Positions 854 through 17,871 of a stretch of 21,553 nt of DNA are shown one piece after another; the stretch's first letter is position 1, and each line of letters starts with the position of its first letter. The DNA lies in the IMG/VR virus record IMGVR_UViG_3300010413_000200, positions 1 to 21,553 of that record. The stretch is one strand, 5' to 3'. The DNA comes from a virus. The notes beneath the pieces are model-generated. The model saw nothing but the letters and a program-made list of their open reading frames with translations. It had not been told where the DNA came from and made no database searches. Both the position numbers and the translations under genes were made by a program.

Positions 854-1081
854 TTAGCTTGGCCTTTGTATTTGGTCAACGTATCGCATAACCAGTTTGT
901 GTTTGGAATCATATATCATATATGAATCCCATTTGTATTCATCGGCAATCCTGTCTCCCTCCTCAAGTGCCCGATTCCTTACCTTGGCCTCAAGTTTGAT
1001 AATGGCACAATCCGATGGATTATCCACATTAACTTTTTCGAGAAAGAAAGTTTCACATGGAAAATTGACTATTTGCCCCAT
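854..1081 (-). CDS. Hypothetical 75-aa phage protein
   Basis: No function recognised. It starts MGQIVNFPCETFFLEKV, and its middle is an alpha-helical, charged segment (CAIIKLEAKVRNRALEEGDRIADEYKWD) with heptad-like spacing. It ends VMRYVDQIQRPS. The start is preceded by the very strong SD GGAGGAGAGG. This SD is embedded in the 3' end of the overlapping 41-codon gene at 1069-1194, so the two genes share 13 bases and are probably coupled. A longer frame on the opposite strand over this interval lacks a ribosome site and is a shadow. Confidence 0.75.
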   Translation of the reverse strand: MGQIVNFPCETFFLEKVNVDNPSDCAIIKLEAKVRNRALEEGDRIADEYKWDSYMIYDSKHKLVMRYVDQIQRPS

Positions 1082-1194
1082 TTTCCTCTCCTCCTCATTT
1101 CTTTTTTTCTTTTCTTTTCATCTTCATACCAAGGCCAGTATATCAATAAAGCTACGATAATCAGGCCCACCACTTCACCGATAGATAAATACAT
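1069..1194 (-). CDS. 41-aa single-span membrane peptide
   Basis: A short gene that is easy to miss. It has ATG at 1194, GGAG 8 bases upstream, and TAG at 1069-1071. The product begins MYLSIGEVVGLIIVALLIYW and continues with a highly basic cytosolic tail (about 26-41: KKRKKEMRRRGKWGK). That gives one hydrophobic segment (about 6-22) followed by positive charge, so an N-out, C-in single-span protein is likely. It overlaps the next gene out of frame by 13 bases. Function is unknown. Small membrane peptides of this shape in phages act as holin or antiholin partners or as superinfection factors, but nothing in the sequence decides between these. Confidence 0.6.
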   Translation of the reverse strand: MYLSIGEVVGLIIVALLIYWPWYEDEKKRKKEMRRRGKWGK

Positions 1195-1213: not shown

Positions 1214-1225
1214 TAGTCTAGACTA
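1214..1225. promoter_or_regulatory. Palindromic box 1, TAGTCTAGACTA
   Basis: Perfect 12-bp palindrome, flanked as GG-box-TGTC. It lies ahead of the 41-aa gene (start 1194) and overlaps the TAG stop of the tiny ORF at 1223-1303. On the - strand the flank gives CATAGT, a possible weak -10. It is one of six identical boxes. An operator for a dimeric regulator is the simplest reading. Confidence 0.6.
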
Positions 1226-1303
1226 TGTCAATAGCGACCTCACTATCTCCACAATCCACGCAAGAGAAGCGAGCCATACCATTAACTCATACATCTTATT
1301 CAT
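1223..1303 (-). CDS. Possible 23-26-aa hydrophobic peptide
   Basis: A tiny open frame, MNKMYELMVWLASLAWIVEI followed by VRSLLT, ending in a TAG that is part of palindromic box 1. A strong AGGTGGAGG sits immediately before it. The spacing is too tight for the first ATG (1303) and better for the second (1294, about 10 bases), so the product may be 23 aa. Almost the whole peptide is one amphipathic or hydrophobic helix with conserved-looking tryptophans. It lies between boxes 1 and 2 and would be transcribed leftward with the small-gene chain. It could be a real membrane micro-peptide or a leader ORF; coding status is uncertain. Confidence 0.4.
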   Translation of the reverse strand: MNKMYELMVWLASLAWIVEIVRSLLT

Positions 1304-1312
1304 TCCTCCACC

Positions 1313-1324
1313 TAGTCTAGACTA
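1313..1324. promoter_or_regulatory. Palindromic box 2, TAGTCTAGACTA
   Basis: Second perfect copy, flanked as CC-box-TGTT. On the - strand it sits directly before the AGGTGGAGG of the 23-26-codon ORF, so a bound protein would block transcription or initiation there. The - strand flank again gives CATAGT. Confidence 0.6.
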
Positions 1325-1424
1325 TGTTGACGAATTGGGCATATAGAGTGCCCCACTATGAAACCATTGTACCATAGTCAAGGCCGGAAGTCAAGCGTTA
1401 TCAATAACTTAGCACAACTCATAT

Positions 1425-1442
1425 GACGATGATAGTAATATT
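1425..1442 (-). promoter_or_regulatory. Promoter-like repeat, copy B
   Basis: On the - strand this reads AATATTACTATCATCGTC. It lies about 120 bases ahead of the tiny ORF at 1303, in the 1304-1556 interval where I see no other gene. The core is identical to copies A and C for 15 bases. It points toward the leftward small-gene chain. Confidence 0.42.
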
Positions 1443-1460
1443 CACACACACGCATAGGTC

Positions 1461-1477
1461 ATGATGATAGTAATATT
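1461..1477 (-). promoter_or_regulatory. Promoter-like repeat, copy C
   Basis: On the - strand this reads AATATTACTATCATCAT, 36 bases from copy B in the same orientation. Its upstream edge abuts a separate 10-bp palindrome, CCTGTACAGG (1478-1487), which in turn abuts palindromic box 3. The tandem arrangement looks like a compact control region for the leftward genes. Confidence 0.42.
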
Positions 1478-1499
1478 CCTGTACAGGTAGTCTAGACTA
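1478..1499. promoter_or_regulatory. Palindromic box 3 (1488-1499) joined to CCTGTACAGG palindrome
   Basis: Perfect copy of TAGTCTAGACTA, flanked as GG-box-GGTG. It is immediately preceded by the unrelated 10-bp palindrome CCTGTACAGG at 1478-1487. Two back-to-back dyads beside promoter-like copies B and C suggest combined control of leftward transcription. Confidence 0.55.
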
Positions 1500-1556
1500 G
1501 GTGAACTATAGGATATATTAGTATATTAGGATAGTGGGATATACAGAATCGTAGGC

Positions 1557-1582
1557 AAAAAAAAGCCCCGGTAATCCGGGGC
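1557..1582 (-). terminator. Rho-independent terminator
   Basis: On the - strand a perfect 7-bp GC stem, GCCCCGG/CCGGGGC with a 4-base ATTA loop, is followed by eight T residues. It lies about 28 bases past the stop of the 222-aa gene and ends leftward transcription from it. The downstream small-gene chain therefore needs its own promoter, consistent with copies B and C. Confidence 0.93.
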
Positions 1583-1609
1583 AAAGTGGATATTGTCGGT
1601 GATTATTTA

Positions 1610-2278
1610 TTATGCTTTGGCCTTATTAGCGGTCAATGCGTCCTTTGCGCTTTTTGGGCGTGAAGGAGTAACGGGTACAAGGTGGCGGAGTACCTTAATA
1701 TCTTCGATTACCTTATCCAGCAGGGCTAATACGTCTGGCTGTTGCTCTGCCGTTGTACCTTCGACCGTACCCACAAGGGCTAGCAGGCGTTGCCCGATTT
1801 CAGGGTTGGCGGCTGCAATATCCTTTGCATTATCAGCGGCAGTCTGCCCACCTTCACCCTGTTCTGCCTTGCGGTAATCGTTCAATGCCTTGCGGTACTT
1901 ACTCATAGACTTGTAATCGCAAGGATTAAAACCCGCTTCGATTCCCTTCTTTACATTGCTTTTGCATTGCGTCCAGGCGTCCGGTACTTTGTCCCATCTA
2001 TCGACAATAGGACAGTTTTCGCTTTTCATAAAGGCTGATTCTGTCTCAATAGCGGCGACTACTTTCTCCACTAATTTCTTGCGGCTGTCCTCATCCTTAA
2101 GGTTTATACCTTCGCTGTATCCCTGTGCGGCCATGAGAAAATGGTCGGCCATTGAAACCCCGGCTTCACGGGCTTCGTCCTTTGCAGTCTGCGCGTGAAT
2201 TGCCTCACGAGCCACATCACGGAAGGTAATTTGACCGCGTAAACCAGTACCCTGCAACTTATCTTTTGCCTTACTCAT
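1610..2278 (-). CDS. Hypothetical 222-aa phage protein
   Basis: No function recognised. It starts MSKAKDKLQGTGLRGQITF, with AAGGAG 9 bases upstream. It is largely alpha-helical and charged, with about 40 residues of helix (REAIHAQTAKDEAREAGVSM) followed by ADHFLMAAQGYSEG. The middle has two Cys (NCPIVDRW and WTQCKSNVKKG) plus a third at NPCDY. The Ala/Glu/Leu-rich C-terminal half ends in a lysine-rich tail (SAKDALTANKAKA). It is a single-gene unit: palindromic box 4 sits upstream, and the terminator at 1557-1582 follows. Dedicated control at both ends suggests a well-expressed early product. It might be DNA-associated, given the basic ends, but no defined DNA-binding motif is visible. Confidence 0.85.
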   Translation of the reverse strand: MSKAKDKLQGTGLRGQITFRDVAREAIHAQTAKDEAREAGVSMADHFLMAAQGYSEGINLKDEDSRKKLVEKVVAAIETESAFMKSENCPIVDRWDKVPDAWTQCKSNVKKGIEAGFNPCDYKSMSKYRKALNDYRKAEQGEGGQTAADNAKDIAAANPEIGQRLLALVGTVEGTTAEQQPDVLALLDKVIEDIKVLRHLVPVTPSRPKSAKDALTANKAKA

Positions 2279-2299
2279 TTTAAAAACTCCTTCTAGACC

Positions 2300-2311
2300 T
2301 AGTCTAGACTA
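2300..2311. promoter_or_regulatory. Palindromic box 4, TAGTCTAGACTA
   Basis: Perfect copy, flanked as CC-box-TGTG, 22 bases ahead of the start of the 222-aa gene and just upstream of its SD. An extra TCTAGA core at 2292-2297 gives a possible degenerate half-site between box and SD. The - strand flank yields CATAGT at a -10-like place, with CTGTCA 16 bases upstream as a weak -35. Confidence 0.62.
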
Positions 2312-2348
2312 TGTGATTGATTGAGAATGTGACAGCTAGTCGCTGCCC

Positions 2349-2381
2349 CACTGTCCCCATTAGACCACAATAGGGGCAGTG
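2349..2381. other. Imperfect hairpin after the 62-aa gene
   Basis: Arms CACTG-T-CCCC-ATT and AAT-A-GGGG-CAGTG can pair for 12 bp with two single-base bulges and a 7-base loop. It begins about 10 bases beyond the stop of the gene at 2391-2579 and lies ahead of box 4. It has no T-run on either strand, so it is not a typical intrinsic terminator. It could be an RNA-processing or stabilising element. Confidence 0.4.
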
Positions 2382-2390
2382 AGTCAACTA

Positions 2391-2579
2391 CTATACAGCC
2401 TGATTCAGTAATAAACCACAGCAATGGCGGCGCATTGGTAAAGCATGAACATAATCAGCCTCAAATAACTTGGAATATACCCGCTCGATGGTATCGGCTC
2501 TATATTCACTATCTACATTTAGAGTGGAAATAGTAACACTTTCACCTTTTTGAATACTTACTATATATTGAATATTCAT
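2391..2579 (-). CDS. Hypothetical 62-aa phage protein
   Basis: No function recognised. It starts MNIQYIVSIQKGESVTISTL, beta-rich, then has a charged helix (ADTIERVYSKLFEADYVHA). The end contains MRRHCCGLLLNQAV with a vicinal Cys pair and an adjacent His. A GAGGTG lies about 8 bases upstream of the ATG. It is the first leftward gene past the divergence region and would be read from the promoter overlapping palindromic box 5. It is probably among the first leftward transcripts. Very short, but spacing, SD and context favour a real gene. Confidence 0.62.
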   Translation of the reverse strand: MNIQYIVSIQKGESVTISTLNVDSEYRADTIERVYSKLFEADYVHALPMRRHCCGLLLNQAV

Positions 2580-2663
2580 AATTTATTCACCTCATTTATT
2601 GATTAACCTCAATATATTATCGGCCATATAATCGAATAAATCAAGAAATATAGAAAAAATACC

Positions 2664-2699
2664 TAGTCTAGACTATATTAATTTTCCTTTGTTTTTCAA
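2664..2699 (-). promoter_or_regulatory. Leftward promoter overlapped by palindromic box 5
   Basis: On the - strand a TTGAAA (2694-2699) and a TATAGT (2672-2677) are separated by 16 bases, a reasonable sigma70 promoter for the 62-aa gene. The TATAGT shares four bases with box 5 (TAGTCTAGACTA at 2664-2675). A protein bound to the box would cover the -10 and start site, the classic repressor geometry. Confidence 0.55.
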
Positions 2700-2744
2700 T
2701 GAGTTATCGAAGTCAAGAAATTAATTCAATTTTATTGTCTATTT

Positions 2745-2788
2745 TGTGATGCACATCACACTTCCTGCAAGTAATAAACCTATATAAA
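2745..2788 (+). promoter_or_regulatory. CRP site with class II-like rightward promoter
   Basis: TGTGATGCACATCACA at 2745-2760 is an exact match to the TGTGA-N6-TCACA core of CRP (Vfr/CRP family) sites, itself nearly palindromic. Downstream, TATAAA at 2783-2788 is a good -10. A start about 7 bases later (around 2794-2795) puts the CRP centre (2752.5) near -42, the class II distance of about -41.5. The -35 hexamer (ACTTCC) is poor, as expected for activator-dependent promoters. Palindromic box 6 lies at about +21 to +33. The promoter would feed the right arm through a leader of over 500 bases. Confidence 0.55.
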
Positions 2789-2815
2789 TAGTAGGGATTA
2801 TGGGATATTTAGAAC

Positions 2816-2827
2816 TAGTCTAGACTA
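2816..2827. promoter_or_regulatory. Palindromic box 6, TAGTCTAGACTA
   Basis: Sixth perfect copy, flanked as AC-box-CCCC, so outside the core it differs from the other copies. It lies just downstream of the predicted CRP-dependent start. A bound regulator could act there as a roadblock on rightward transcription. Confidence 0.6.
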
Positions 2828-3173: not shown

Positions 3174-3205
3174 CCACACATATCATCAAAAGGTACAAAA
3201 ATAAA

Positions 3206-3235
3206 TTGAACTTTTGCTCATTTTTGTTGTCTAAT
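3206..3235 (+). promoter_or_regulatory. Candidate sigma70-type promoter for terS
   Basis: TTGAAC (3206-3211) and TCTAAT (3230-3235) are 18 bases apart on the + strand, about 125 bases ahead of terS. A second option is an extended -10 element, TGGTATAAC (3297-3305), with no usable -35. Both are ordinary matches in AT-rich DNA, so confidence is low. Confidence 0.3.
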
Positions 3236-9023: not shown

Positions 9024-9323
9024 GTGTCACAGAGATTTTCAGAAGATTTTTATAGACGTTCTGATGAGGCACTAGAAATTGTTGGTAAGAATGAAATCGA
9101 AGCATGGTACCGCCATCCAATAACACAAGCACTACGGTTCTCCCTCATGGGTGACTTTATGGGTCTCTATGATTCGTGGGGAAACGGAGAGTTTACTAAA
9201 GAAAGTTCGGATGGAACTGTACAAGCAAATGCTAAAGCCCTAGGTCAGGTTCAGGCTATCGAATCCATGATTGATTGGATTGATGGTTTGAATGCGATGA
9301 AGGAGGATAGTGAAGATGCTTAA
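9024..9323 (+). CDS. Hypothetical 99-aa head-module protein (GTG start)
   Basis: No function recognised. It begins with GTG at 9024, preceded by AAAGGAGATAGAT. An overlapping ATG two bases earlier is in another frame and does not stay open. The protein is MSQRFSEDFYRRSDEALEIV, mostly helical, with an aromatic WYRHPITQALRFSLMGDFMG core and an acidic C-terminus (MKEDSEDA). It sits between portal and co-chaperonin, so a head-assembly accessory is plausible. Its stop overlaps the next gene's 5' end. Confidence 0.82.
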   Translation: MSQRFSEDFYRRSDEALEIVGKNEIEAWYRHPITQALRFSLMGDFMGLYDSWGNGEFTKESSDGTVQANAKALGQVQAIESMIDWIDGLNAMKEDSEDA

Positions 9324-9627
9324 ACCATGCGGACATAAAGTTCTGGTAAAACCAGATCCCATTGAAAAAGAAACTGCTGGTGGTATTGTTATTGTAGTTG
9401 ACGAGAAGATGGAGAAATCTGGTATCCAACGTGGTACTCTAGTAGCTCATGGCCCTCAAGCTTGGAAAGCATTCAGTAATGATTTCACAGGCGAACCTTG
9501 GGCAAATCCGGGAGATTATGTAGTATATGCCCGATTTGCTGGAAAGTTCATCGAGGACCCGTTTACTAAAGAAGAGTTTCTCATTATGAATGATGAGGAC
9601 GTAATAGCAATTATGACAGAGGAATAA
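9316..9627 (+). CDS. GroES-like co-chaperonin
   Basis: This 103-aa protein has the Cpn10 order: N-terminal strand HKVLVKPDPIEKETAGGIVI (mobile-loop region with the GGIV motif), then RGTLVAHGP, an aromatic insertion (AWKAFSNDFTGEPW), NPGDYVVYARFAGK, and the end KEEFLIMNDEDVIAIM, which parallels the GroES EVLIM-E-DILAI segment. GroES caps GroEL, and phage versions such as T4 gp31 replace it so that large capsid proteins fold. Location between portal and scaffold fits a role in folding the major capsid protein. ATG at 9316 was chosen because GGAGG lies 9 bases before it; the upstream GTG (9310) is too close to that SD. Confidence 0.9.
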   Translation: MLKPCGHKVLVKPDPIEKETAGGIVIVVDEKMEKSGIQRGTLVAHGPQAWKAFSNDFTGEPWANPGDYVVYARFAGKFIEDPFTKEEFLIMNDEDVIAIMTEE

Positions 9628-16763: not shown

Positions 16764-17320
16764 TGTTAATTAGTGGTCGATTCGGAAACATCAGAACTAA
16801 AACTACATGTAGTTGTACTCCGGGTAATACAGGATGGGTTAGTGCTGGCAATGGAGCTAATAATGGAACAGGTACTTCTTGGACAAATCCCACTAATATT
16901 TATGTAAGTGATAATAATAGAGCATTTGTTTCTTTATCCCTATATGGTCAAGCACAAAATTTATTCGCAACTAATTTTGATATGTCAGCAATTCCGGATT
17001 GTGCCGTGATTTCACAAGTGGAAGTACGTGCTGAGATGTATCAAAATGTAGGCCCATCTATTCATGGTGTATTTTATTTAGTGAAAGGTGGTGCATTAAC
17101 AGGTAGTAGTTCCTCATCTGTTATTCCTACTTCGACAGAAGCATATATAACAAGAACTGGAGATGCAGGAGCTGATCCACTTTGGAGTGCAACATTGACA
17201 CCAGCTGATGTAAAATCAACTAATTTTGGATGTGCATTACAAGGATTTGTTATTGATTCGTATGATTCTAATGTTATTTATTGTGATCACGTGCAGATGC
17301 GAGTGAGTTGGACATGCTAA
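16763..17320 (+). CDS. Beta-sandwich tail-associated protein
   Basis: This 185-aa product begins MLISGRFGNIRTKTTCSCTP and has a domain from GWVSAGNGANNGTGTSWTNP through NRAFVSLSLYGQAQNLFATN, IPDCAVISQVEVRAEMYQN and FGCALQGFV to DHVQMRVSWTC. The order 'TNP-N---SD---A---L--------L-ATNF---IP--A-I--IEV-----...DHV---V-Y' is a recurrent secreted or virion beta-sandwich domain found in fibre-associated proteins. A carbohydrate- or receptor-facing role is inference from its place right after the fibre. Codon use here is more AT-rich than in the capsid genes. Start is the TAATG overlap with AGGA 9 bases before. Confidence 0.72.
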   Translation: MLISGRFGNIRTKTTCSCTPGNTGWVSAGNGANNGTGTSWTNPTNIYVSDNNRAFVSLSLYGQAQNLFATNFDMSAIPDCAVISQVEVRAEMYQNVGPSIHGVFYLVKGGALTGSSSSSVIPTSTEAYITRTGDAGADPLWSATLTPADVKSTNFGCALQGFVIDSYDSNVIYCDHVQMRVSWTC

Positions 17321-17871
17321 ATACTTTTGTAGTCTCAGGCAGACCCCGTTCTGGTACATCAATGATGATGCGAGCTTTGGGTTTGAGTGGGTTAAAAATG
17401 AGATATGATGACAGACCAGAAAGAACCCAAGCTTATAAGGATGCTTTTAAGAATACCCGATATCATCCTAATCCTTGGGGTTTCTTTGAAAATGGTATAA
17501 TTGATTATCGGAATGGGGAAGGAGATGGAGAGGTCTGTAAAGTCTTTGCAAGAGACTTGGGCATTAAATGTCCTGTATTACCAGATGTTACCTACAATGT
17601 AATTGTAATGATACGGCCTGAAACAGAGATTAAATTATCTTTTACTAATGGTTTTGGGATTGATTTTAATTTAAACTCCATGATGACTATCCCCGAAATT
17701 ATGGATTATTTGGCTACACGTCCTGATTTTAATTGGATTGCTTTAAACTTTGCCGATGTTATTGCTAATCCATTAGACACATTTAAAAAATTAGTAGCAG
17801 CTGGGTGGCCTATTGACCCTGTAATTGCGGCAAGCACTATTGACCCGACACTCTATCGGAGTAAACTATAA
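17314..17871 (+). CDS. Sulfotransferase-like P-loop protein
   Basis: This 185-aa protein opens MLNTFVVSGRPRSGTSMMMR; residues 8-19 match the 5'-phosphosulfate (PAPS) loop R-S-G-T-[ST] of sulfotransferases. VIVMIRPETEIKLSF (about 97-110) supplies the Arg101 and Ser109 of the 3'-phosphate motif. The closing IDPTLYRSKL parallels the 'VDPSLYRNR' end of a bacterial sulfotransferase-like family, as do 'NPWGFFEN' and 'PE...'. It is short (usual members are about 190-300 aa), so substrate-binding parts may be reduced. Catalysis is unproven; it could modify a virion or host-surface glycan or simply bind nucleotide. It overlaps the previous stop and lacks a strong SD. Confidence 0.78.
   Translation: MLNTFVVSGRPRSGTSMMMRALGLSGLKMRYDDRPERTQAYKDAFKNTRYHPNPWGFFENGIIDYRNGEGDGEVCKVFARDLGIKCPVLPDVTYNVIVMIRPETEIKLSFTNGFGIDFNLNSMMTIPEIMDYLATRPDFNWIALNFADVIANPLDTFKKLVAAGWPIDPVIAASTIDPTLYRSKL

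Follow-up and report, generated by a model that had tools for sequence, protein, structure and literature searches.

Identical palindromes between early phage genes and the uncharacterised protein family that accompanies them

Phages that carry a set of identical short palindromes of the kind described here also carry a rare, uncharacterised protein, which suggests an undescribed DNA-binding switch on their early genes. To our knowledge, gene control is unknown in most lytic environmental phages, and nearly all of their early proteins are merely listed as 'hypothetical'. The repeated palindromes pick out one such hypothetical protein as a likely regulator, both in phages of Vibrio breoganii and in metagenome contigs. 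If this is true, the protein would represent a new family of regulators in which no DNA-binding domain is recognised, and the natural matched protein-site pairs (TAGTCTAGACTA, TAGTATATACTA and GTATACATGTATAC) could be used to study how a regulator and all of its sites change jointly.

Palindromes in the early arm of the window

The stretch analysed here (the window) is a whole public record, a linear virus fragment of 21,553 bases. Its plus strand carries genes for terminase, portal and capsid, and to the left of these are small genes on the minus strand. An exact search of the full 21.5 kb finds the perfect palindrome TAGTCTAGACTA six times (boxes 1 to 6, Table 1) and nowhere else. The first-pass annotation, made by eye, had described six identical copies and none in the structural region; both statements are confirmed, as no further copy appears anywhere in the window even with one or two mismatches, and matches with three mismatches occur at chance level. 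Its view that such a six-fold repeat exceeds chance is borne out by the reversed-control sequence, which has no copy in the window versus six for the palindrome, and by Markov-shuffled sequence, in which any exact 12-bp palindrome is seen at most once and never repeated. Comparison with the ORFs agrees with the described placement between genes: five of the six boxes (2-6) lie outside ORFs, and box 1 shares bases with the TAG stop codon of a 26-aa ORF on the minus strand. The shared flanks are also as claimed, with CC preceding copies 2, 4 and 5 and T directly following the 12-mer in copies 1, 2, 4 and 5. The tetranucleotide CTAG occurs 40 times in the window.

Rather than being scattered at random through coding DNA, the boxes are restricted to the early arm and the divergence region, in gaps between minus-strand early genes, and several of them directly precede ribosome-binding sites; the idea of a phage regulon survived this comparison. 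Along the minus strand, the elements follow each other as box 6, box 5 with a promoter-like sequence, the 62-aa ORF, box 4, a ribosome-binding site, the 222-aa ORF, a terminator-like hairpin, box 3, a second promoter-like sequence, box 2, the 26-aa ORF with box 1, and finally ORF 1069-1194. Because of this order, there are boxes within transcription units and not just at a promoter, and the earlier description of control sites for the left arm is corrected in this respect. Scanning the remaining early ORFs of the window against Pfam and PHROG gave no useful match.

Table 1. Boxes and neighbouring elements in the left part of the window, in minus-strand order
Feature	Position	Strand	Remark
Box 6, TAGTCTAGACTA	2816..2827		divergence region, far upstream of any start codon
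Promoter-like TTGAAA-16-TATAGT	2672..2699	-	consensus match only; box 5 overlaps the -10
Box 5, TAGTCTAGACTA	2664..2675		over the -10 of the promoter-like sequence before the 62-aa and 222-aa ORFs
62-aa ORF	2391..2579	-	first gene of the candidate regulator's unit
Box 4, TAGTCTAGACTA	2300..2311		21 nt ahead of the start codon of the 222-aa ORF
222-aa ORF	1610..2278	-	candidate box-binding regulator; orphan family, found with all box phages tested
Terminator-like hairpin, then T8	1565..1582	-	after the 222-aa ORF; consensus match only
Box 3, TAGTCTAGACTA	1488..1499		upstream of the promoter-like sequence 1366..1394
Promoter-like TTGACT-17-TACAAT, extended -10	1366..1394	-	upstream of box 2; consensus match only
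Box 2, TAGTCTAGACTA	1313..1324		leader, immediately ahead of the ribosome-binding site of the 26-aa ORF
26-aa ORF, MNKMYELMVWLASLAWIVEIVRSLLT	1223..1303	-	stop codon within box 1
Box 1, TAGTCTAGACTA	1214..1225		intercistronic, 19 nt ahead of the start codon of ORF 1069-1194
41-aa ORF	1069..1194	-	downstream of box 1

Several other features of the window were seen alongside the boxes. Box 5 and box 6 flank a perfect CRP-type site (TGTGATGCACATCACA, positions 2745-2760, by eye); it lies upstream of the candidate regulator's promoter-like sequence, on which host CRP may act. A second repeat family on the minus strand comprises AATATTACTATCATCATCAC and variants at 401-420, 1423-1442 and 1458-1477, one copy of this family being just ahead of the ribosome-binding site of ORF 2-382; contig G039 contains ACTATCATCA five times as well, two of these near a box. 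Before the plus-strand structural genes, a 38-nt block (3197-3234) is 95% identical in G001 and 90% in G052/L051, the DNA around it differing between the window and these records, and it is perhaps a late promoter. Further to the right, a 105-aa ORF (9310-9627) matches a gene of MW202796 annotated as 10-kDa chaperonin, and a 187-aa ORF (17308-17871), which starts with the P-loop-like SGRPRSGTSMMMRALG, looks sulfotransferase-like by eye.

A protein family found together with the palindromes

The annotation had found no obvious regulator in the window. A likely one is there, however: the minus-strand ORF 1610-2278, which has boxes on both sides and whose 222-aa product is probably the regulator for the boxes. 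This protein has no Pfam, PHROG or PDB sequence match, and a search of IMG/VR with it alone gave no match because the family is too divergent; its relatives were found through the terminase and the box. Near-identical DNA was not found in INPHARED, neither for the window nor for a 17-kb piece of contig G012.

Fourteen IMG/VR loci match the window's terminase. The closest of them, G001 (70% identity), has three exact copies of TAGTCTAGACTA, in the divergence region and before the gene of its 222-aa homologue, and nucleotide similarity to the window around the boxes is otherwise limited to two short blocks; the 12-mer is thus kept while its flanks diverge, and the idea also withstood this check in relatives. 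In G003 (terminase 55% identical), the palindrome is TAGTATATACTA, present six times, with both halves changed together relative to TAGTCTAGACTA. No such repeated palindrome was found in G006, G007, G009 and W01.

BLAST with the 222-aa ORF recovers G001 and, weakly, G012, a contig known only through its boxes. The G001 protein as query leads to six Vibrio breoganii phages, three of which, the Zobellviridae 1.015.O, 1.034.O and 1.209.O, were examined and, being near-identical, counted as one lineage. Their family gene, annotated as hypothetical protein, opens a minus-strand arm at the right-hand end of the record; its product in 1.209.O is AUR95622.1. These phages, reached through the protein alone, carry five to seven exact copies of TATACATGTATA each, mostly within GTATACATGTATAC. 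In MG592579, all seven boxes fall in annotated gaps (p ~2e-8, with non-coding DNA accounting for 8% of the placements in that arm), and four of these gaps measure 28-69 bp, the box lying 13-21 nt ahead of the next start codon. The same record (L124) holds a second set, TATACANTGTATA, which is one base wider than the main Vibrio box and occurs seven times (36430, 38397, 41560, 42582, 42722, 43694 and 17266). VpV262, SIO1 and CVT22, members of the same family Zobellviridae, have neither the protein nor a palindrome set.

For the reverse direction, from boxes to protein, IMG/VR was scanned for the 12-mer followed by GGAG, which yielded 76 stretches. Copy number in the whole record singles out three lineages, namely G039 (13 copies), G012 (eight) and G052 (six, and three in its near copy G022). 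A profile from which G039, G052 and G003 had been left out detects the family in each of them (8e-48, 4.5e-9 and 2.9e-16, respectively). Thirty records in which the 12-mer occurs once or twice gave no family match in a profile search; the two-copy records (G032, G040, G057, G061 and G070) were compared by family search alone. A positive-control run of the family search recovered every expected member, which shows sensitivity and not homology, because several members were in the alignment. Homology of all eight members tested is confirmed at the sequence level by leave-one-out profiles, with E-values of 3.8e-52 for G001, 1.4e-51 for G039, 1.2e-23 for the window, 7.8e-19 for G003, 5.2e-17 for MG592579, 6.8e-15 for G012, 3.3e-11 for G052 and 3e-8 for G002. 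The most conserved element of the family is a core PxxWxQxKS at the start of a helix.

Because the box itself had led to several of the box phages, each search direction is judged separately. Among lineages reached without it (G001, G003 and the Vibrio phages), three of three have a palindrome set, compared with none of the eight phages without the family; conversely, the family is present in G012, G039 and G052, the three lineages to which many boxes had led. At least three identical palindromes accompany the family in the window, G001, G003, G012, G039, G052 and the three Vibrio phages, and, with the exception of G052, all of these have a box upstream of the family gene. G052 is the weakest case of the association: the majority of its boxes fall inside ORFs, some of them encoding a recurring SLDY peptide close to protein ends, where synonymous variants occur as well. 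Several G052 proteins (L129-L131; ~5642, 6213, 6479, 10585 and 10875) share the tail SLDYM(N/S)D..LS.EDK.II.EAL, whose SLDY codons, synonymous variants included, overlap the box. In G039 (L128, ~35020-35080), tandem TATGACAATTATGGTCACAT repeats were seen by eye between two boxes.

More distant relatives give a less clear picture. The distant family member G002 has no repeated perfect palindrome, and a search for words repeated across its gaps gave nothing strong. TTGAN4TCAA, chosen post hoc, occurs only four times in its 50 kb (20790, 21766, 23221 and 23613), within 2.8 kb around the family gene, and this cluster may be a degenerate box set. Pseudomonas phage PPpW-3, by profile a still more distant relative, has no clear box set. 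GTDB species genomes contained no homologue in a search with the family alignment, a pattern search that may miss divergent copies, and there is therefore no prophage support.

It is quite unlikely, in our judgement, that the boxes are bound by another phage or host protein and that the 222-aa family is merely a linked gene under its control. In an all-versus-all ORF comparison of seven box phages and ten others, the 222-aa family is common to all seven; the sole other cluster that they all share, a merged terminase/replication cluster, is present in box-free phages too, and the complete or near-complete box phages have no other ORF family in common that the box-free ones lack. The box sequence also varies by lineage, which a common host factor would not predict. 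A different binder would fit with the very divergent family proteins that accompany identical boxes: the G052 protein is only about 12-14% identical to that of the window, yet its 12-mer is the same, which is unexpected if recognition residues drift. The window genome, moreover, is incomplete, so that its other genes are not comparable.

A six-frame translation-stop sequence or a cloning-linker artefact is a barely credible origin of the boxes. CTAGTCTAGACTAG does give TAG in three frames on both strands, and papers containing the 12-mer are, judging by their titles, apparently on cloned constructs, but up to 13 dispersed copies occur in unrelated contigs. As a general explanation the six-frame-stop reading is rejected, as the Vibrio variant GTATACATGTATAC is without any stop codon.

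AlphaFold models of the family are all-helical, and their confidence is moderate, the mean pLDDT being 70 in the window protein and 80 in that of G001. In a fold search of these models against the PDB, no fold stood out and no recognised DNA-binding fold was found. Among viral models, only A0A2I7QQ18, a 188-aa entry of the same length as the Vibrio family proteins, and the distant PPpW-3 protein matched.

How the boxes could act

We consider it moderately probable that the six boxes are binding sites of a phage-encoded regulator, most likely a dimer of the 222-aa protein, which would repress early genes in a stoperator-like manner. The first-pass annotation had proposed operators for a dimeric regulator, and this part of its reading has gained from the confinement to the early arm, the placement in gaps, the conservation with diverged flanks and the symmetric change between lineages; control would run through the candidate in the window. 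Box binding by this protein, its dimerisation, and repression or a roadblock rather than activation are what we infer beyond the exact repeats, their positions in gaps, their symmetric change in other lineages and the co-occurrence with the family from both search directions.

Such a regulator would act at promoters and between cistrons, and repress its own gene along with other early genes. With box 5 on the -10 of its own unit's promoter-like sequence and box 4 before its ribosome-binding site, it would limit its own synthesis. At boxes 1 and 2, in an intercistronic gap and in the leader of the next unit, bound protein could block RNA polymerase between genes, and early genes would be turned down as the regulator accumulates. 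Promoter repression combined with an elongation block between genes seems to us the best fit to this arrangement. Speaking against such a regulator are the distant relatives G002 and PPpW-3, which lack a clear palindrome set, the placement of the G052 boxes, the all-helical models with no recognised DNA-binding fold, and the 12-mer that the window and G052 share despite their very divergent proteins.

Most boxes overlap no recognisable sigma-70 promoter, which counts against a regulator of this type and could instead indicate positive elements, i.e. core or activator sites of early or middle phage promoters, with the 222-aa protein as an activator or polymerase-binding factor. Phage promoters often serve one individual gene each, and the many boxes, one ahead of individual genes, would suit this, as would the -10-like TATACT in TAGTATATACTA. 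In the Vibrio phages and G003, however, the ribosome-binding site follows within a few bases of the box and leaves scant room for a -10 and a transcription start. A palindrome also carries no direction, and, unlike in T4 MotA-type middle promoters, there is no fixed distance from box to -10 across 55 boxes. We therefore regard positive elements as fairly unlikely.

That many boxes are transcribed and lie right ahead of ribosome-binding sites might also point to a function in RNA, where a small hairpin would control translation or mRNA processing. This appears highly improbable: the would-be loop of four central bases is self-complementary in each of the three variants (CTAG, ATAT and CATG), the next start codon is 85-240 nt or more away from several boxes, and the window has no Rfam match. 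A DNA site for a dimer is favoured over an RNA hairpin because of these self-complementary centres, the far-upstream boxes and the symmetric change between lineages.

On the wider claim, that an undescribed all-helical phage family acts as a sequence-specific DNA-binding regulator through perfect palindromes between the cistrons of the early arm in several lineages, with all copies of the site rewritten symmetrically together with the protein in some of them, we see the balance as about even.

Comparison with known phage repeat systems

In the open-access literature, we found no phage report for the 12-mer, nor for ATACATGTAT together with 'phage'. The Zobellviridae of V. breoganii resemble the window in that they encode the family protein and have, in the gaps of the early arm, their own set of palindromes; they differ from it in the box itself, which is GTATACATGTATAC.

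The closest historical parallel is the SPbeta repeat SPBRE, an intergenic repeat in one phage that was first noticed from sequence alone and only much later tied to the repressor MrpR (PMC10516654). MrpR, which keeps the prophage silent, has a tyrosine-recombinase fold and represents an unexpected repressor family (PMC10516654). For the 222-aa family, no tyrosine-recombinase similarity was seen in the family scans, which gave no match, or in the fold search, which gave no clear fold, and there is no prophage evidence.

In their proposed mechanism, the boxes recall cluster A mycobacteriophages such as L5 and TipsytheTRex, in which a short site is repeated at promoters and in short intergenic spaces, and these operators and stoperators are proposed to block both initiation and elongation (PMC9283540). 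The window likewise has many copies of one short site, at a promoter and in intergenic gaps. The mycobacteriophage sites, however, are asymmetric 13-mers that are oriented with transcription and to which an HTH monomer binds (PMC9283540), whereas all three variants described here are perfect palindromes, and the boxes are for this reason not filed as a member of the stoperators. The cluster A repressor combines an HTH with a second DNA-binding domain; the candidate regulator of the window has no recognised HTH and all-helical models. If our reading is true, the boxes and their protein would form a palindromic counterpart of the mycobacteriophage stoperators.
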